DNA of 37,449 nt, taken from the NCBI GenBank assembly GCA_021163645.1, contig JAGGTN010000013.1, positions 1 through 37,449 of the forward strand. Direction: 5' to 3'. The stretch's first letter is position 1; each line of letters begins with the position of its first letter. The notes beneath the pieces are model-generated. The model was not told the origin of the DNA. It ran no database searches and saw nothing but the letters and a program-made list of their open reading frames with translations. The position numbers and the translations under genes were made by a program. Shown here piece after piece: positions 15,708 through 36,859 of this stretch. The DNA comes from Microcaldota archaeon. GTDB lineage: Archaea; Micrarchaeota; Micrarchaeia; Anstonellales; JAGGTN01.

Positions 15708-18700
15708 TCACGGTCGTGAAATGTGACCAAATATTGGTATCCTTCGCTTAGATGGCACTATTAATATACCATTACTATTACCTTCCCTCTTATCTTTTTC
15801 TCTTGGAACAGAGACATGCTCTCCAACTCTGATATCTGGAATATTAATTGGTTTCTTTTCTAATATAGAATAATTTTCATGTGCATACACAACCTCATCA
15901 TCAATTAGACTCAAACCTATTAAACACTGATATTCACCAGGACTAGGCTCATCCTTTAAGGTTTCAATATAACTAAAACCGTCCCCAACAACTAAACTAT
16001 CATACACCATATTAGAATCACCAACTATCATAGCAGATACATTCCTAGTTTGCCCTATTGCTCTACTATCCAATGCTGTAACACTCCCACGACACACCAA
16101 TTCATTACCCTGCATACCAAAGAAACTAACGGTAGGACTGACAACATACATATCATGCTTATATGAGACTTGAATAGGTTCAGACGAGTTAGTTCCATGC
16201 TCAACCCATATTCTATAATCCTCATTCGCCCTAGCAGAAGGACCAATATTACGCAATGTAACAACACCACTGTTTCCATGAATTTCAGAACACTCAGCTG
16301 GAGCAGTGTTATCTACTACCTGCTCGCATAGATTATAAACATCATCCGGCCCTGACCAATTGATAGTAATATTCAAATCCTTGTAATTCCCAGTTTGAAT
16401 GAACAATGAGTTATTCTTAGGCGAAATTATATTGACAGTTTCTATCCTAGTCACTAAGAATGGCCATCTATCAGATTCGGTGGTGTTTATACCATCACTT
16501 ACGACTACCCACCAACTGTATTCATCATAATCAGGTGCAGTCCAATCAAACGACGCTCCAGTCCCAACATCATACTCCCATTCTTCGCCAGTGTTATCAT
16601 TTAATATGTGAAGTTCGCTTGTTACAGTGTCGCCGTCGTCATCATATGTAGACCATTCAAAATGAATATTCTTTTCTTCATCATCAGACAGCTCAAACAC
16701 TTGCCATTGCTCAGGAGATATAAGAGTAACTTGTGGTGGATGATTTTCTCCTGAAACTGTAACCATAAACTCTCTATGCTCGCTCTCAACCTCATTCTCA
16801 CCATCTGAACAATTAACATACCATTCATATGTACCACCAAGCCCATCAGGATTACTTACACCAAAAACACTGCATAGATTATTATAGTAATAATTAACAC
16901 CAGGGTCACGCTCCTTGACAACATCACCTAAATCATCAGGGCCTAATATATGTAATTCGCAACTAACTGTATCGCCATCCTCATCATAGACATCCCAAGT
17001 CATGCCAATGTGAGGGCATTCATCACCTGATGAAACAGAATATTCATAACCATCAACAGGGTTTGTTAATGTCACTACTGGTGCATGGTTCTCATCACTG
17101 CCAACATTAAATGTATAACTTTCATCATCTGAACATGCACCATATTCACCATTATTGCTTGCTATGATATGTAAATGATGCTCACCAGATTCTAAATCAT
17201 CAGGCGCATCAACAGAACAAATGTATAAATATTTGTACAATGGCTCAGAACAAACAACAGGTGCATAATCGCTATCATCCCAAGCATATGTAATATCATC
17301 CGAGGAGGTTATAACACTAAACCTTATCTCTTGGCCAGGTGTGATAGTTGAACCGTCGGGGTTTGAACTTGATAATGAAATGACTGGCTGTGCCAATACC
17401 TCAAAATGCCTATGCACAGATTCTATCATATCATGACCATCATCAGCAACAATATACCATTCGTGAACCCCTTCACTTGTAACCCAATGGTTTGCATTTT
17501 CATCACTTGTCGTTATAACCTCATCATCACCATCAGGATTAATTATATGAAGGTCATAACTAAGCGTATCACCATCCGCATCATTACCATCCCATTCATA
17601 ATTCATGTTTAACTCATGAGCACAGAATAATTGTTCATCATCAGGAGACACCAATTCAACGGTTGGTGCATGATTTTCTGTATTGCACGAATCATCCCAG
17701 TTGCCCCATGATGCATTCATTGCATCAGAATATAATTCTCCGTCATTTGCCTGTGCTTCACAAGTCCAGATATCACAATTATTAGATAAATCAGGTGCTG
17801 GCGGATTATCTAGCTCACTGGTATCGCAGTCATCCACACCATTTGCTTGGCATGTTAATACGCCATCATAATCAGATACATAAGTTCCATTATGATACCA
17901 TCTGATATCAACAGTGACCTCATCATCGTCACTATCGTTTACAACCACATAACAACGCATAACCTCTGGTGAACTAGGACCAGAAGGCACTGAATGTGCT
18001 GTCATACTGACAATCTCAGGCGGTGCATCTTCATGCGGCCCGCATGAATCATCCCAATTTGACCACACGGATGAATTGACAGGTTCTGAATAATCATAAC
18101 CATCATATGCCTGTGCTTCGCAAGTTGTGTTCGTGCAATCATCCAACCCTTGCGGCAGTTCTGCATCAGTCATACAACCTTCTCCGTTTGCAGGGCACGT
18201 TCCAGTCCAGTCATACCCTTCAACATATTCTCCATTTATATACCATTTAACAGTAGCATTAACCTCGTCATTATCAGGGTCTGTAACATTAAACGCGCAA
18301 CCCAATCCTCTCAAATCATCAGGATTTACAGGTGGCGGATGATGAAATATTGTAACATCACTTACCACTGGCGGGTCGTTATGGAACTCTGTTATTGTTA
18401 AATGACATGAACTACTCTGGACAGGTGGATTAACACCATCGTCAACTGTTACATACCAATCATATTCACCAGGTGTGAGCTCTTCCATTGTGTATGATTC
18501 ATCACTCCCTATTGGAACATTTAATCCGTTAACATTTAAATTATAAGTTAATTCATCACCATCGTCATCGTGGCCGTCCCATTCAAACGTCACATCAACT
18601 GAACCATCAGGACCTGCTTCAATCTCTGAACCGCAGTCAGGAGAGATTAATTCAACTGTTGGGTCATGGTTAACATTAACATCAAAGAACCAATGCTCGC

Positions 18701-21700
18701 TCTCAACCTCATTAGTTCCATCTGAACAATTAACATACCATTCATACATACCATCAACAGTATCAAAGTAAACAGCAAGATTAAAATTAATCCATGGGAA
18801 CACATCAACATCGCGCTCATACTCTTCGTCAGTATCAATGTTTGTTATGTGCAACATGCACCTGACTGGCTCGCCCTCTGGGTCATCAGTGTGCCACTGC
18901 AACTGAACCGTCTTGGCTGCATCTTCTGCAAACATAAACTCCGAATCGTTTTCTGGTGAAACCAAGTAAACTTCTGGAGGTGCATTGCCAACAGTAAATG
19001 TATCATTCACAATACAAGAAAATGGAGTATCAGCATTTAATGAACCGAACGCTCTACATTCCCACTCAGCACCTTCAACAACATCATCTTCAGTTATATT
19101 GATCTTTGCAGTGTGTGTGTCACCAATTGCAGGATTTGTTGTGCCATATTCATGATGTCCAAGGTCATCTGAACATTCAACTATGCCTGTAAATTCTGCT
19201 CCCCACTGCTCAGCACGTTGCAACATCTCATCATCATAATGCGCGATAATATGAACCTCATTTCCTGAATAAACGATATCTGGTGAACGGTCAATCGTTA
19301 TCCCGCAACCCAAATCAGGGAATATATAAACGGTCCAATGCTCGCTTTCAACGATTTCCCTGCCATCAGTAACATTGACATACCATTCATAAATACCTGG
19401 GCGCAGGTCAACTGTTGCATATTCATCAGTTGTTTCAATGTCTTGTTCAGGACTTGTTTCGATACTGCCATAATAATAAATAGGTTGAATATGGAACATA
19501 TAACTTAATGTATCATCATCTGGATCTTCACTATGCCATGTAAATTCAACCGATTCGTTTTCTGTTGTGATATTGGTCTGGTTACCATCTTCTGGTGAGA
19601 TTAATTCTATACTTGGAGCATGATTAACGCTAACACTGAAAGATTTGTTCGTCATACAAGATAATCTTTCTTCATCGCATGACGTTGACAGATAACCTTC
19701 ACAATAAATCTCCTGTCCTGCTGTCAAACCTGGCAGTGCCAGGTCAAACTTCTCATAATCATTATCCTCACACTGCTGGGCAATGACATCACCTGTTGCA
19801 AGATCTTTGCATGTTATTGTATAAGCAATATCATCAACGCCCCAGTCTTCACGCACACGTTCTGCGATATTGGGCGCAGTGTACAACACAATATGTGTCT
19901 CATCGCCCTCATACACAGGTTCAGGGTCGACCCTTAACCAATGCTCACAACCCATGTCTGGGAATATCTCAATGAACCAATGCTCGCTCTCAGTTATGTT
20001 ATGTCCATCATCAGCAATTACATACCATTCATAAATACCTGGACGCAGGTCAGCTGTATAATTTTCATCTTGCCCAGCCCATAATATCTCTAGTGTTGGT
20101 GTGATTTCATCAAAGCTACCAACAGGGGTCACATGTAGTTTGTAAAATAGCTCCTGCCCATCTGCATCGTTGCCGTCCCATGTAAATTCAACCGATTCGC
20201 TTTCAGTTGTGATGTTGCTCTGGGTATTATTTTCAGGTGAAACAAGAACTATCATGGGCGGTTGATTAGGCTGGACAATGATTGAATCGTTTATTATACA
20301 ACTCATATTATCATCATTATACCAATCCCTTTGCAAATAATATGAACAAGTCCAGTTATCCCCTGCTTGCACCTTATCTGCAGGTATTACACACTGACAA
20401 CCATCAAAAGCATCTTCAGTACAATTATACTCATCTCCATTATTATCACTACAATGTAATGATGCAATGATTGGCGTACCCCATTCATGTGACAAAGTAC
20501 GTATATTATTACTAACGTTCATATCAACTCTTATCGGCTCACCTTCTATCGCATTACTTATATGCATACTCAACTCACAAGGATACATAGGTACAATTTT
20601 GAAATGCCAATGCTCGCTCTCAGTTATCCCATATCCATCATCAGCAATTACATACCATTCATACGCACCAATAGGAAGCGAGATATCATAAGTCGTGAAA
20701 CCATTCATATTAATCACACTTTCATCGCCCCCTGTGGTATTATAATGCAGAGTATAACTTAATGGATCATCATCTTCATCGTTCCCGCTCCATTCAAAAT
20801 GTATTATGTTATCACTCGGTGAATATATGCCAATATGAGCATAATCTTCTGGTTGTATTAAATCAATACTAGGTAGATGGTTTATTATCATCACAGTATC
20901 ATTCGTCATGCAATTTCCAAAATAATCGGTATTGTTATATTCAATATAATATCTGGCTGTACATGTCCAATTGTCACCTGGTGATGTTAACTCATGTGAT
21001 AATATACTTTCACATCCAGTCGCCGAATCACATGCAAGATTATCACCTTCTCCTGAAAACTCACCATTCTTATACCATTTGATATCAGCATACACTGTGC
21101 CAAACATTGAGGAAAGCGATGCTACATCACCAGAAACATTACAGAACAGGTCATCATTCTTATTCGGTTCATTTGGAATAATATCAACAAATGGACAGGG
21201 AAATTCTACTGTTGTGAATGTCCAATGCTCACTCTCGAACATATCATCACCATCTCTGGCAATTACGTACCATTCATAATCCCCAGGAATAGTAGTGGCA
21301 TCATATTCATAACTGGTATCGGCTCCTACATAAACCTGCTCACCGTTAACATATACTGAATAATTTAGCGGGTCGTTATCTGCATCACTACCAGTCCAGA
21401 GCAATTCAACTGGTGAATCAGAAACAGAATTATCAGGCGGTGATACAAGTTCAACAAACGGCGCTGAATTCTTAATATCAGTTATCGTGAAATCTATCGC
21501 GCTATCGTTCATACTAACCACGCATCTCCATTGATCATGATGATTCATACCAGATATTGGAGGAGTCTCATAATGATGCCATGACTCATCACCTAATAAA
21601 TCATATGTCCATTCATAACCAGTATCTACCCAGTCAGTACCATTCCATGTCTGCCAGTTAAATGTGACATTAACATCCTCATCTAGACCTTGTAGGTCAG

Positions 21701-24700
21701 CAGAGCAAGTCATATTTGAGGTTGTATAAACAGGCTGCGGCTCGATGGTAAGATTATCTATAGGTGGGAGTATGACAGCAGAGGATATAATAAAGGTCCA
21801 GTGGGCACTCTCATTGGAATACTCTTCACCATCATACGCACGAGCATACCATTCATACGCACCGTAATCAAGTTGGATAGGTGAATTCACTTCATTGTAT
21901 GTTGTATCAAGTACACTCCTTATGTAATAATGTATGCTTACATCATCACCATCTGGATCAGGGTCTATATAGTTTGCTGTTAAGGTCACGTTTGTATCCC
22001 TAAGAGTACTAGCATTAGCAGGAGAAACCAACTCAGGAACTGCTGGTAGAATATTTTGAACAATAACGTAATCACTTACAGCATCCCCATAATAATAACC
22101 CTTTGATCCTGAATAATCAGTAACAGGTATCGCTTCGCATGTAATATTATCATGCTTTGTTGTATTGTCATGGCTCAATATTTTTATGATATCACCATAA
22201 GGCACTTGCTCGTTTGAAATCTCAACACCATTCCTTAACCATTTGATTATTAAATAATCAGCATCACCATCAACAGTGACATTACATTCAATATCATCGA
22301 ATGTATCAATCCTTGAATCCGTATACCCAGTACCAGGAACTGGCCCAACATCAACACTGATGTTTCCAGACGGTCTGGGGTCAACAACGATAAAGTTACG
22401 AGTTTCTGAAACGGTCTGGTTATCACCATCGCTTACGATTACATTCCATGTATAATTGCCCGGTGAATATGGAGACCCTTTATCTGACCCATTTTCAGGA
22501 CCTTCATGAGCCCAGATTAATGCTCCATCATGATATACATGTAATACATAGTTTAACGAGTCGTTGTCCAGGTCGTCAGCAGGATAATCAAATCTGACAT
22601 TATCAAATATTGTAAACACTGAATCATTATCTGGTGTGATATTGATGAACTCTGGTGGGATATTATTAATATATACATTACCATGCCAGTCATTATCACT
22701 TATCATATTCCAAGTCCCGTATGTTTCAGCACGCACATAAATAGTTAGATTATCGTGTTTTGTTGTATTGCCATGGCTGAGAATATATTGGCAATTACCA
22801 GTACCGCATGATATGTTTTCATTGGTGATAACATCAACACATGAATAATTATCAGGACTGGACACGTATGTGCAGTTATTACCTATGAACAACACAGCAG
22901 TAGAATATGACGAATAATTTGACAATGTGATATTTACCAGCATATCATCATATGTTTCCCAGTATGACCTCACACCATTCAACTGAGTAAGTATAACATC
23001 ATCAACATGAGGTCTCAAAGGTGCAATGTTGAGATGTCTGGTTTCGCTTATGGTACTATTATCGCCATCATTAGCTATTACATACCATTCATACTGCCCA
23101 ACTGATAATTGAACATCAAACTCGCATGTAGCAGAATCTGATTCATTATGATAACTTATTCCATCAACGCCGTCGATAATGATATGACATGCAACCGAGT
23201 CAGAATCAACATCACTCGTATTAATATCAAAATGTACATTACCTTCTGGTAGATATTCGGATAATGATGTATGGTTATCCGGTGACATGCTCGTTATCTC
23301 AGGCGGTGTGTTCTCAACTAATAATGAGGTATTACGTTCAGTGCCAGGTAAATGCGAATAACTTCCTAGACCATTATCCCATACCGCATATGCTTCGCAT
23401 GTAACATTATCATGCTTTGTTGTATTGTCATGGCTCAATATCGCTGCAAACCAGTCAGCATTTGGAGTGGTAACGAGCTCATCATAAACTGGTGAGCCAT
23501 TGACATAGAATATAAACTGCACACCATCATAATCCAAGCCATAAGTTCCATTGACCCTTACCCTGCATCTTAGGTCATCCAATGTATCAACAGCATCAGG
23601 CATCGAGCCATTAGACACAGGTTCAAACATCATGTCTAAGACATCTATGGTGCGATAAACAGTAAATTCATAATGTTCGCTCTCAACATTTGAAGAGCCA
23701 TCACTCACATCTACATACCATTCATATTCACCTGGTTGATACGCATAAGTATAATTTATATCATGATTAATGATCTCTGTACCATTAGGATAAATTACAT
23801 GATATTCATAGGTTAATGTATCATTATCAGGGTCGTATGTTTCTACCCATAAAGTAATATCTCCTGCTGCCAGTGTACTCGCGTTGCTTGGGTGTAACGC
23901 AATAATCTGGGGCGGCGAATTCATAACAACAAATTTTTCATGAATCGCCCCATCCACGTATGACTTGTTAACATATGCTTTGCATAGATAAGAATTTCCT
24001 TTAGATGTTTCATTATGCGGGTAACTATCCAGGTAGTCAACATAAAGAGAATCAAGGTTAACACTTTCATTCATTGGCGACACTGTCTTGAGCAACAAAC
24101 CATTAGATTCCAACGACCAGTCATCAGCAGTTGGATAAATCATATTGTTCAGCATATGCATTTTACAATTTAAATCCTCATCAGTATAAACCTCTTTCAC
24201 ATAATAGGTCGTCCCATTTATATCTTCAGAATAATCATACTCAGGAGGCGACATGATAACAGTAAGCTTCCCATCAGAATATTCATAAGGACATGTCAAA
24301 TCCTTATACCTGGTATCAAAAATCTCACATGGCTGACAATCAGTTGCTTGACAATAATTATCATCCCATACACCTGAGCCATGAGATACACTACCTGAGC
24401 AGAACGCATTATCATAAAATTCAGCTTCTGGCCCAGACCAGTCAAGAGAGATAACACCAAACCTATAATCTAAAATATTACCTCTTAACTGATATTCACC
24501 AGTACCTGTTATTCCATTATCGGCATTGATAATATTATATAATAGGCTACCTGTTCCACCAGACACGTTGATGCCATTAGTTGATATTAATTTATTATAT
24601 TCAAATACTGTATCACCACCATACAGATTAGCGCCGGTAGTAGTTGTCATACGATTGCATGCAGCAACCGATGAGCCAGAATAACTTTCATATCCAATTT

Positions 24701-27059
24701 CGCCATCAATATCATTGTCAAATATAAGGTTATCATTTGAATATGCACTGATACCTGTATTAGACGAATGGATTTTATTGCCAATTATCTGCGCGCCTGA
24801 GCCATTGACATCGATTGAAAAGTTGAAGAATATATTATTGAGTAGCTTGGCAGAATCGCCATTGATCAATACCCTGAGTTGTGAAGAATCAGCTGCAAAA
24901 TTGCATCCGTCAATCACAGAATTATTGTTAAGTACTAAGGCAACCTGCTCAGTTCCTTTTGCTTTATTTGTATTGGCGGCAGAATCTTCACCAGCATAAT
25001 ATGATGATTTAGATTTGCTTCCGATACCACAAGTCATAGTGACATTATCATCAACTGTTAGTTTTATGAAATCCTGATGATTTGGACAAACCTTAGTTGA
25101 TTCAACAATACGATATACATAATAATCTTCCTGAACAATATCCGACAAGCCATTACCATTATAATCCCATGTTGCTGGGTTTGAAAAATCTACACAATGT
25201 GATAATGAGAAACAAGAATCTGATTGAATAATACTGTTTGAATCTTCATCATCCAACGTGCCAAATATATTGTCACCAATATTATTATTTGAATCTGATG
25301 ATAAATGAATATCTATATTATTACCACATGCGTGGTTATCAGTTAAGTGATTATTATCAGAATCATTAACAAAGTCAATACCGATATTATAATTATTTAC
25401 ATAACAATTCTTAATAGTAATATTATCATGACCATCGTTGACTATTCCCTGGCCATAACCAGTCCCGTTTATTATTGCTCCATTACAATCAAGAACACAA
25501 TTGTCACAGTTAATACTTATCGCTGGAGAGTTTGAAGGGATATTATAAATCTTGTTGACCAAACGCACATCCTGATCGATTAAATATTCACCTGAGACAT
25601 TCTCAACATTAGATATCCCATCATTATCAGGGTCCCATGTACTTGGGTCGTCTAGATCAACATACCAACAATCAGGATCATCATTATCGATCAATCCATC
25701 ACAATCATCATCAATACTATTAGAGCAATCTTCAATCATAGGACGTGTTGGATCATAGTCAGCACAATCATTACCATCAAACAGACAACCGTTTGTTATA
25801 TTACAATGTGGACACACTCCGTATCCATCCCTATCAATATCCTGGCATGTAAATCCAGAACATACATGAGCGCAATTACCGCTAGCTACTCCAACAAATT
25901 TTGAATCACAATAATTATCCGAATATGCATTATCATTATCTGTTTCGTCATAGATATCATAAGTTCCATTGCCTTCGCATACATGATTGTTATCAAAAGT
26001 ATTGAATTTGGAATTAATATCTGTGAATATACCATAATCACCATTATGGTCAAAATAATTATTGGTTATAGTATTGTTGGTGCTAGAATACAATGATATA
26101 CCGATGTAATTATACCTACTATCAGAACCTGTTATGTTGGCAAAATCTGTTTGGATTAGAACAATCCCATTGGAAGATGAATTGGCATCTGCCGACATTA
26201 TGGTGACATTATTAATATTGGAATAATCTGCATTGCAAAGGATTAACTCAGCAGCATGGATATTGGATAAATCAACCTTTGAATTATAGTACAGGATATC
26301 ATGTCCATCAAAGATGTTATTAAGCTCATCATTATGGGAAATATCATTATCACAGTCAGTATAACTATCAGCATCAATGAATATATGGAATTCATTTGAA
26401 CTGAAATGATTATTTGTAATGGTATTACCTGGACCTGTTAAATAAATTCCATAATCAGTGTTGAATATGTTATTATCCTCAGCGTTAATGGTTGACCCAT
26501 GGGTTGAATATATACCATATTTACCACCAAATAATCTATTATTGATAACGTTAAGAGAAGAGGAATCTGAATAGATATTAAATTCATTGTTGAAGAAACT
26601 ATTATTTTCAATTGCACCGGTAGCATCGTTATAGAAATAGATACCTTTTGAATAGCCATATATCTCACAGTTCCTTATCGTAACATTCTTATGGCCATTG
26701 TTCTCAATACCTATACCTACTCCATAAATCGGTGAGCCGTTACAATCCAAAATTATATTATCATTATTTATGATAATGTCACCGTGTGATAATCCTAATA
26801 TATGTGGTTGCCCATTGTTATTAGTAGAAAGAGAATAATTTCCAAAACATAACTGGGTATTAGACGAAATAGTCATTCCTTTGTACGGGACAACACAATT
26901 ACCTGAGCCAGTATCATTTGCGATTGCTAAGTTAGTCAGTCCTATCAAAAATATAGTCATAAATGCTATTGTTAACAGTTTATCTATTCCACTAATTATA
27001 TTATTCTTCATAATATTATCCATCAACTTATCCACAAATTCATCCCTTTCATAAGTCAT
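15708..27059 (-). CDS. Giant (3783 aa) secreted/surface protein: signal peptide, NosD-like right-handed β-helix regions, MopE-type metal-binding motif, long array of alternating Ig/PKD-like domains
   Basis: Single open frame; N-terminal 'LLTIAFMTIFLIGLTNLAIAND'; 'NNTITNNYFDHNGDYGIF'-type β-helix repeats; 'DIDRDGYGVC…DDDCDGLIDNDDPDC'; at least 13 copies of '(P)GxYEWYVxxxDGxxxxESEHWxF'. SD-like GGGGTG upstream. Confidence 0.93.
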   Translation of the reverse strand: MTYERDEFVDKLMDNIMKNNIISGIDKLLTIAFMTIFLIGLTNLAIANDTGSGNCVVPYKGMTISSNTQLCFGNYSLSTNNNGQPHILGLSHGDIIINNDNIILDCNGSPIYGVGIGIENNGHKNVTIRNCEIYGYSKGIYFYNDATGAIENNSFFNNEFNIYSDSSSLNVINNRLFGGKYGIYSTHGSTINAEDNNIFNTDYGIYLTGPGNTITNNHFSSNEFHIFIDADSYTDCDNDISHNDELNNIFDGHDILYYNSKVDLSNIHAAELILCNADYSNINNVTIMSADANSSSNGIVLIQTDFANITGSDSRYNYIGISLYSSTNNTITNNYFDHNGDYGIFTDINSKFNTFDNNHVCEGNGTYDIYDETDNDNAYSDNYCDSKFVGVASGNCAHVCSGFTCQDIDRDGYGVCPHCNITNGCLFDGNDCADYDPTRPMIEDCSNSIDDDCDGLIDNDDPDCWYVDLDDPSTWDPDNDGISNVENVSGEYLIDQDVRLVNKIYNIPSNSPAISINCDNCVLDCNGAIINGTGYGQGIVNDGHDNITIKNCYVNNYNIGIDFVNDSDNNHLTDNHACGNNIDIHLSSDSNNNIGDNIFGTLDDEDSNSIIQSDSCFSLSHCVDFSNPATWDYNGNGLSDIVQEDYYVYRIVESTKVCPNHQDFIKLTVDDNVTMTCGIGSKSKSSYYAGEDSAANTNKAKGTEQVALVLNNNSVIDGCNFAADSSQLRVLINGDSAKLLNNIFFNFSIDVNGSGAQIIGNKIHSSNTGISAYSNDNLIFDNDIDGEIGYESYSGSSVAACNRMTTTTGANLYGGDTVFEYNKLISTNGINVSGGTGSLLYNIINADNGITGTGEYQLRGNILDYRFGVISLDWSGPEAEFYDNAFCSGSVSHGSGVWDDNYCQATDCQPCEIFDTRYKDLTCPYEYSDGKLTVIMSPPEYDYSEDINGTTYYVKEVYTDEDLNCKMHMLNNMIYPTADDWSLESNGLLLKTVSPMNESVNLDSLYVDYLDSYPHNETSKGNSYLCKAYVNKSYVDGAIHEKFVVMNSPPQIIALHPSNASTLAAGDITLWVETYDPDNDTLTYEYHVIYPNGTEIINHDINYTYAYQPGEYEWYVDVSDGSSNVESEHYEFTVYRTIDVLDMMFEPVSNGSMPDAVDTLDDLRCRVRVNGTYGLDYDGVQFIFYVNGSPVYDELVTTPNADWFAAILSHDNTTKHDNVTCEAYAVWDNGLGSYSHLPGTERNTSLLVENTPPEITSMSPDNHTSLSEYLPEGNVHFDINTSDVDSDSVACHIIIDGVDGISYHNESDSATCEFDVQLSVGQYEWYVIANDGDNSTISETRHLNIAPLRPHVDDVILTQLNGVRSYWETYDDMLVNITLSNYSSYSTAVLFIGNNCTYVSSPDNYSCVDVITNENISCGTGNCQYILSHGNTTKHDNLTIYVRAETYGTWNMISDNDWHGNVYINNIPPEFINITPDNDSVFTIFDNVRFDYPADDLDNDSLNYVLHVYHDGALIWAHEGPENGSDKGSPYSPGNYTWNVIVSDGDNQTVSETRNFIVVDPRPSGNISVDVGPVPGTGYTDSRIDTFDDIECNVTVDGDADYLIIKWLRNGVEISNEQVPYGDIIKILSHDNTTKHDNITCEAIPVTDYSGSKGYYYGDAVSDYVIVQNILPAVPELVSPANASTLRDTNVTLTANYIDPDPDGDDVSIHYYIRSVLDTTYNEVNSPIQLDYGAYEWYARAYDGEEYSNESAHWTFIISSAVILPPIDNLTIEPQPVYTTSNMTCSADLQGLDEDVNVTFNWQTWNGTDWVDTGYEWTYDLLGDESWHHYETPPISGMNHHDQWRCVVSMNDSAIDFTITDIKNSAPFVELVSPPDNSVSDSPVELLWTGSDADNDPLNYSVYVNGEQVYVGADTSYEYDATTIPGDYEWYVIARDGDDMFESEHWTFTTVEFPCPFVDIIPNEPNKNDDLFCNVSGDVASLSSMFGTVYADIKWYKNGEFSGEGDNLACDSATGCESILSHELTSPGDNWTCTARYYIEYNNTDYFGNCMTNDTVMIINHLPSIDLIQPEDYAHIGIYSPSDNIIHFEWSGNDEDDDPLSYTLHYNTTGGDESVINMNGFTTYDISLPIGAYEWYVIADDGYGITESEHWHFKIVPMYPCELSMHISNAIEGEPIRVDMNVSNNIRTLSHEWGTPIIASLHCSDNNGDEYNCTEDAFDGCQCVIPADKVQAGDNWTCSYYLQRDWYNDDNMSCIINDSIIVQPNQPPMIVLVSPENNTQSNITTESESVEFTWDGNDADGQELFYKLHVTPVGSFDEITPTLEILWAGQDENYTADLRPGIYEWYVIADDGHNITESEHWFIEIFPDMGCEHWLRVDPEPVYEGDETHIVLYTAPNIAERVREDWGVDDIAYTITCKDLATGDVIAQQCEDNDYEKFDLALPGLTAGQEIYCEGYLSTSCDEERLSCMTNKSFSVSVNHAPSIELISPEDGNQTNITTENESVEFTWHSEDPDDDTLSYMFHIQPIYYYGSIETSPEQDIETTDEYATVDLRPGIYEWYVNVTDGREIVESEHWTVYIFPDLGCGITIDRSPDIVYSGNEVHIIAHYDDEMLQRAEQWGAEFTGIVECSDDLGHHEYGTTNPAIGDTHTAKINITEDDVVEGAEWECRAFGSLNADTPFSCIVNDTFTVGNAPPEVYLVSPENDSEFMFAEDAAKTVQLQWHTDDPEGEPVRCMLHITNIDTDEEYERDVDVFPWINFNLAVYFDTVDGMYEWYVNCSDGTNEVESEHWFFDVNVNHDPTVELISPDCGSEIEAGPDGSVDVTFEWDGHDDDGDELTYNLNVNGLNVPIGSDESYTMEELTPGEYDWYVTVDDGVNPPVQSSSCHLTITEFHNDPPVVSDVTIFHHPPPVNPDDLRGLGCAFNVTDPDNDEVNATVKWYINGEYVEGYDWTGTCPANGEGCMTDAELPQGLDDCTNTTCEAQAYDGYDYSEPVNSSVWSNWDDSCGPHEDAPPEIVSMTAHSVPSGPSSPEVMRCYVVVNDSDDDEVTVDIRWYHNGTYVSDYDGVLTCQANGVDDCDTSELDNPPAPDLSNNCDIWTCEAQANDGELYSDAMNASWGNWDDSCNTENHAPTVELVSPDDEQLFCAHELNMNYEWDGNDADGDTLSYDLHIINPDGDDEVITTSDENANHWVTSEGVHEWYIVADDGHDMIESVHRHFEVLAQPVISLSSSNPDGSTITPGQEIRFSVITSSDDITYAWDDSDYAPVVCSEPLYKYLYICSVDAPDDLESGEHHLHIIASNNGEYGACSDDESYTFNVGSDENHAPVVTLTNPVDGYEYSVSSGDECPHIGMTWDVYDEDGDTVSCELHILGPDDLGDVVKERDPGVNYYYNNLCSVFGVSNPDGLGGTYEWYVNCSDGENEVESEHREFMVTVSGENHPPQVTLISPEQWQVFELSDDEEKNIHFEWSTYDDDGDTVTSELHILNDNTGEEWEYDVGTGASFDWTAPDYDEYSWWVVVSDGINTTESDRWPFLVTRIETVNIISPKNNSLFIQTGNYKDLNITINWSGPDDVYNLCEQVVDNTAPAECSEIHGNSGVVTLRNIGPSARANEDYRIWVEHGTNSSEPIQVSYKHDMYVVSPTVSFFGMQGNELVCRGSVTALDSRAIGQTRNVSAMIVGDSNMVYDSLVVGDGFSYIETLKDEPSPGEYQCLIGLSLIDDEVVYAHENYSILEKKPINIPDIRVGEHVSVPREKDKREGNSNGILIVPSKRRIPIFGHISRP

Positions 27060-36313: not shown

Positions 36314-36597
36314 GTTTACCACCAAGCATATCAAACAAGCATCCAAACAACATCTAATATAAATAAATAAGGCATTCTTATTTTTATAAACCCTTGCTCC
36401 ATCCATGATATATAACCCATAATTTTATATCTCATTTTCCTTTTCCTTATGTATTCTAACTCTCCATTTAGTTGTTGGTAACAATTAACGATGGTTTTTT
36501 AAATATTCAGCATACTAATAAAAATGTTATCCGGCTAATTTACCCAATTGATCTAACGTTAATCATGCCGCGGTAGCTCAGCCTGGGAGAGCACTCC

Positions 36598-36647
36598 AAG
36601 GATTTCAAAGAAATAACTGGAAATTATTATTTCTTTATCTTGGTGAA
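36598..36647 (+). other. tRNA-Phe intron 1 (50 nt, position 30/31)
   Basis: BHB: central helix CACU/GGUG, bulges CC|A and AA|G, outer helix AGGAU/AUCUU, then a 10-bp AAAGAAAUAA/UUAUUUCUUU stem. Confidence 0.8.
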
Positions 36648-36654
36648 GCTGAAG

Positions 36655-36689
36655 CCCAGATTATCGCTGACTCCGTCAGAAAGTCAGAA
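36655..36689 (+). other. tRNA-Phe intron 2 (35 nt, canonical 37/38)
   Basis: Exon helix CUCCG/CGGAG, central helix CUGA/UCAG, bulges AG|C and AA|A; outer helix weak; internal hairpin CUGAC-UCC-GUCAG. Confidence 0.75.
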
Positions 36690-36711
36690 ACGGAGGCGTC
36701 GCCGGTTCAAA

Positions 36712-36763
36712 AAGCCAAAAAAGGAGCCAATAAAACATGAAAATAAGATAAAGGTTGTGAAAA
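36712..36763 (+). other. tRNA-Phe intron 3 (52 nt, T-loop position 59/60)
   Basis: Exon helix GCCGG/CCGGC, central helix UUCA/UGAA, bulges AA|A and AA|U, outer helix AGCC/GGUU with one extra unpaired G. Confidence 0.8.
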
Positions 36764-36859
36764 TCCGGCCCGCGGCATACACATGGTTTTAGAATCAATA
36801 AGAATAGGATTTTAAATACTTTCATACTTATTATCATTATATCTATTGAAGGTGCTGAT

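Follow-up and report, generated by a model that had tools for sequence, protein, structure and literature searches.

The window, by which we mean the whole 37,449-nt stretch of DNA that was analysed, belongs to a Micrarchaeote genome (DPANN, of the ARMAN kind) and contains what is very likely a working tRNA-Phe(GAA) gene, probably the only one in that genome, interrupted by three introns. We are confident of this reading, in which the 211-nt gene core, introns included, would be transcribed as a single precursor, the epsilon2-type splicing endonuclease EndA would cleave it at three BHB-like sites, and a ligase would join the exons into a 74-nt tRNA. We consider the gene to be real and probably essential, and its organization, which is well supported, fits the known archaeal multi-intron pattern. 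The exons and introns are as follows.

36567 to 36597, + strand: exon 1, 31 nt, tRNA positions 1-30 (5' strand of the acceptor stem and D arm), from ARAGORN on the spliced product
36598 to 36647, + strand: intron 1, 50 nt, site 30/31, from pairs seen by direct reading; the site is common to 22 genomes
36648 to 36654, + strand: exon 2, GCTGAAG, 7 nt, positions 31-37, bearing the entire anticodon GAA, from ARAGORN on the spliced product
36655 to 36689, + strand: intron 2, 35 nt, canonical 37/38 site, from direct reading; many relatives have 37/38 introns
36690 to 36711, + strand: exon 3, 22 nt, positions 38-59, from ARAGORN on the spliced product
36712 to 36763, + strand: intron 3, 52 nt, site 59/60 in the T loop, from direct reading; relatives and other tRNAs of this genome have 59/60 introns
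36764 to 36777, + strand: exon 4, 14 nt, positions 60-73 (3' strands of the T and acceptor stems, and discriminator A), from ARAGORN

The four joined exons, GCCGCGGTAGCTCAGCCTGGGAGAGCACTCCGCTGAAGACGGAGGCGTCGCCGGTTCAAATCCGGCCCGCGGCA (74 nt), were called tRNA-Phe(GAA) by ARAGORN with every stem paired. This call bore out the initial annotation, which had proposed three introns and a 7-nt exon carrying the anticodon and whose intron coordinates were exact to the base. The unspliced locus gave no ARAGORN match, even with introns allowed (0-300 nt, or the fixed 37/38 option), and no Rfam match at the gathering score. An intron-aware parser that allowed introns at these three sites only could parse the real sequence in exactly one way, whereas 20,000 shuffles of the part 3' of exon 1, each keeping its dinucleotides, yielded no parse with either strict or relaxed settings.

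All three introns occupy recognised archaeal tRNA intron positions: 37/38 is the canonical one, and both 30/31 and 59/60 have been listed among the non-canonical sites of archaea (PMC4090602). As had been claimed for each junction, a central helix of 4 bp was present at all three on direct reading, with the strands CACU/GGUG, CUGA/UCAG and UUCA/UGAA at introns 1, 2 and 3, respectively. The helices read directly from the sequence are listed here.

36592 to 36595 with 36642 to 36645, + strand: central helix of intron 1
36599 to 36603 with 36637 to 36641, + strand: intron-side helix of intron 1, 5 bp, followed by the stem of a long hairpin
36649 to 36652 with 36684 to 36687, + strand: central helix of intron 2
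36706 to 36709 with 36758 to 36761, + strand: central helix of intron 3

The bulges of intron 1 are CC^A and AA^G. Its exon-side helix, of no more than 2 bp, competes with the D stem; base 36592 belongs to both the D stem and the central helix. The cut of intron 2 is AA^A, with the anticodon stem as exon-side helix, and that of intron 3 is AA^U, with the T stem in this role. An intron-side helix adjoins the bulge in intron 1 only. Because they lack a proper one at the 5' site, introns 2 and 3 are relaxed hBH sites rather than full BHB sites, and the gene does not show the strict hBHBh' motif, with helices on both sides of every junction. Among archaeal multi-intron tRNA genes, the relaxed forms hBH and HBh' also count as splice sites. 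When the precursor was folded by free energy, the central helices of introns 1 and 2 were not preferred. This counts only weakly against the splice sites, because the mature tRNA also failed to fold as a cloverleaf (-35.7 kcal/mol, against -39.9 kcal/mol for the free optimum). A CTCCG motif in intron 2 (approximately 36670 to 36674) copies the 5' strand of the anticodon stem and pairs with bases 39-43 in the predicted fold of the unspliced precursor; this may be chance, and the 15-nt intron 2 of another genome of the order (G043) has no CTCCG.

The site of intron 1 is strongly supported by covariation. In a gap-free alignment of 20 distinct 30/31-intron sequences scored for the splice-site helices, 92.7% of cells were paired, as compared to 31-39% when the helices were slid by 1-3 columns, a control that keeps the relatedness of the sequences. 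Cells changed on both sides numbered 44, against 12.9 expected from shuffles, and the covariation score was 0.465 versus 0.168, with none of 500 shuffles, which ignore relatedness, reaching 0.465. At tRNA position 28, the central helix had a U-G pair in 11 sequences and an A-U pair in 8; in those 8 of 20, the change from U28 to A28 was matched by a G to U change inside the intron. Base 28 is at the same time paired in the anticodon stem of the mature tRNA; thus, the mature tRNA and the intron have changed together. The search pattern used to collect these sequences fixed the intron end GTGAA and exon 2, so that constancy there is no evidence, and the varying pairs lie outside the pattern.

The host assembly comprises 895 kb in 57 contigs and is 88.6% complete. 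Our survey of its tRNAs, made up of Rfam hits and targeted loci, yielded 17 Rfam tRNA hits, eight of them above the cut-off, and there was no tRNA-Phe among the 17. The initial annotation had suggested looking for a second intact tRNA-Phe; a search of this assembly with the spliced tRNA found none, returning only the gene's own exons and weak matches elsewhere. Among the 17 loci, one, Met(CAT) (L001), was plainly intronless and most others had one or two introns; the tRNA-Phe is therefore one of many disrupted tRNAs in this genome. These assignments come from a multi-intron solver that found no solution for L013 and L014, gave doubtful ones for L004 and L007, and mis-solved L001, which was read as intact. 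Introns at 59/60 were present in the tRNAs for Ile, Val (two), Asp, Gly, Lys and elongator Met.

Several side observations were made. The T-loop 59/60 introns lie at L008, L009, L010, L012, L015, L016 and L017, and the Ile(GAT) and Val(GAC) introns clearly resemble each other in sequence, as though a single intron had spread from one tRNA to another. The tRNA-Lys(CTT) (L016, contig C23 from 23035, + strand) has an apparent 13-nt 37/38 intron and an unusually long 59/60 intron of 239 nt. Within the window, the sole tRNA detected by Rfam was tRNA-Ser(TGA) (1702 to 1851, - strand), with a 67-nt intron at 37/38. The window also holds a single 3783-aa ORF (15708 to 27059, - strand) with many segments that appear repeated by eye, which gives it the look of a giant surface protein; the genome itself has a size of about 0.9 Mb.

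It is very improbable that the locus is a decaying, insertion-filled tRNA-Phe pseudogene with an intact copy in the unassembled part of the genome, roughly 11%. The completeness and the fragmentation of the assembly leave room for such a copy, but every stem base of the spliced product pairs correctly, the insertions fall exactly at sites used in relatives and all three have central helices, and nearly all other tRNAs examined in the genome are also interrupted. Still less probable is a mis-assigned junction between real exons, either with intron 3 cut elsewhere in its A run, where AAA at both ends lets its boundaries slide by 1-3 nt while the mature tRNA stays the same and only 59/60 fits the splice site, or with introns 1 and 2 removed together with exon 2, which would take the anticodon away and which runs against the identity of exon 2 in 22 genomes (a sequence that the search pattern required).

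For the three-intron tRNA-Phe gene, the geometry of the sites suggests an order of intron removal. The helices of intron 1 occupy D-arm bases 23-25 and exon-2 bases 32-33. Intron 2 forms its central helix with bases 32-35 and has as its exon-side helix the anticodon stem (27-31/39-43), which is interrupted by intron 1. Because the site of intron 2 needs this stem, intron 1 (30/31), whose removal would restore it, should leave before intron 2 (37/38); the removal of intron 3, which lies in the T arm, is expected to be independent. Folding energies neither prove nor disprove the order of introns 1 and 2. It has already been stated that closely spaced archaeal tRNA introns may need sequential removal (PMC8450103).

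The genome has one EndA gene (contig C50), encoding a protein of 422 aa. Its best PDB match was 4fz2, the ARMAN-2 EndA (E = 5.9e-119; residues 32-422 aligned with 13-387 of 4fz2), and Pfam identified the N-terminal and catalytic domains and a weak Sen15-like match at the C-terminus. The residues Y236, H251 and K282, together with Y160 and K161 of the ARMAN-specific loop, are all conserved in the alignment with 4fz2; the first three have been described as catalytic and the loop pair as conferring broad specificity (PMC12397907, PMC6379350). Taking the epsilon2 type to be a three-unit protein of about 390 aa that aligns end to end with ARMAN-2 EndA, we assign the 422-aa protein, as judged from its sequence, to this three-unit type. 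Such an enzyme would suit introns 2 and 3, because the epsilon2 type cuts relaxed sites, as both require. The four named relatives of EndA comprised two from Candidatus Micrarchaeota, among the closest, one from an archaeon and, more distant, one from an Aenigmatarchaeote. The DPANN-type lineage guessed initially was thus correct, since the kin of EndA include Candidatus Micrarchaeota and its best solved relative is that of ARMAN-2.

The same three-intron arrangement occurs in related genomes. In a first search, 30 tRNA-Phe genes were parsed, the present one included: three introns were found in two (this gene and that of G043), introns at 30/31 and 37/38 in five, at 30/31 and 59/60 in one, at 37/38 only in five (one of which, L044 of G033, has a masked 3' end and was read by eye), at 59/60 only in two, and none in 15. 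A pattern search of 295 genomes of the phylum then detected 22 that have a 30/31 intron followed by this 7-nt exon 2, which is identical throughout, as the pattern required; two of these genomes fall outside the order, G170 had two copies, and a second match in G167 (L076) was a chance hit. This search added the three-intron genes of G177 and G247, so that at least three other genomes of the order (G043, G177 and G247) have a tRNA-Phe of identical layout, its 7-nt exon included. The two-intron tRNA-Phe of other Micrarchaeota of the same order (for example G014, G022, G037 and G057) has the same 30/31 and 37/38 introns and 7-nt exon, but, unlike the three-intron gene, has no 59/60 intron. The latter was present in the tRNA-Phe of G001, G008, G043, G049, G177, G247 and G292. 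All 31 nt of exon 1 also occur in the intronless tRNA-Phe of G012. The suggestion that such a gene would be unusual in DPANN was therefore too strong, given these three genomes with the same layout and the many with two of the three introns, and it is further weakened by the multi-intron tRNAs tabulated for ARMAN-1 and ARMAN-2 (PMC4033280, Table 1).

Within genus g17, only G177 had a 59/60 intron among several parsed genomes, and the 59/60 introns of G000, G043, G177 and G247 showed no obvious similarity by eye. The simplest reading of this distribution is that the 59/60 intron may have been gained repeatedly, in agreement with the transposition of introns that has been proposed for Thermoproteales, as cited in PMC4033280. 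Tentatively, and at slightly short of even confidence, we propose that in this order of Micrarchaeota the three-intron tRNA-Phe has originated on more than one occasion, as introns inserted repeatedly at the same three sites, and that removal of the 30/31 intron must precede that of the 37/38 intron. In the genomes of family f8, the tRNA-Phe was intronless in all nine that were parsed, and tRNA matches numbered 41-44 per genome in the four counted, versus 9-37 in eight other genomes counted. The f8 EndA proteins (G007, G015, G023, G026, G029, G032 and G041) are divergent and mostly shorter, with 284-351 aa in six of the seven read. The idea that f8, with its intronless tRNA-Phe, lost the broad-specificity loop is weakened by the finding that f8 EndA keeps the aromatic-Lys pair of the loop. 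The f8 genomes offer a natural comparison for the coevolution of enzyme and introns.

Up to three introns per tRNA have been documented in Thermoproteales (PMC4033280, PMC8450103, PMC4090602), for example in the tRNA-Pro(UGG) of Pyrobaculum islandicum, with introns at 25/26, 37/38 and 56/57 (PMC4090602). The present gene resembles these multi-intron tRNAs in having three BHB-type introns, one canonical and two non-canonical. It differs from the P. islandicum gene in the tRNA concerned, in its non-canonical sites (30/31 and 59/60) and in its unrelated lineage, and the endonuclease is of the epsilon2 type here, as predicted, and (alpha beta)2 in Thermoproteales. It is closer to ARMAN-1 and ARMAN-2, with which it shares the phylum-level lineage, the enzyme type and the presence of non-canonical introns, and whose multi-intron tRNAs are explained by the broad-specificity epsilon2 enzyme (PMC12397907, PMC6379350). 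No earlier description of this tRNA-Phe was found in the literature searched, the primary ARMAN paper lying outside that search.

This gene widens the range of three-intron tRNAs beyond Thermoproteales, to include a DPANN lineage whose splicing enzyme is different. Because ARAGORN and Rfam miss the gene, an annotation of this genome could list no tRNA-Phe, and many Micrarchaeota tRNAs are likely to be missed by the same tools. The order provides a natural series of zero, one, two and three introns in one tRNA, in which questions of intron gain and of ordered removal can be addressed.
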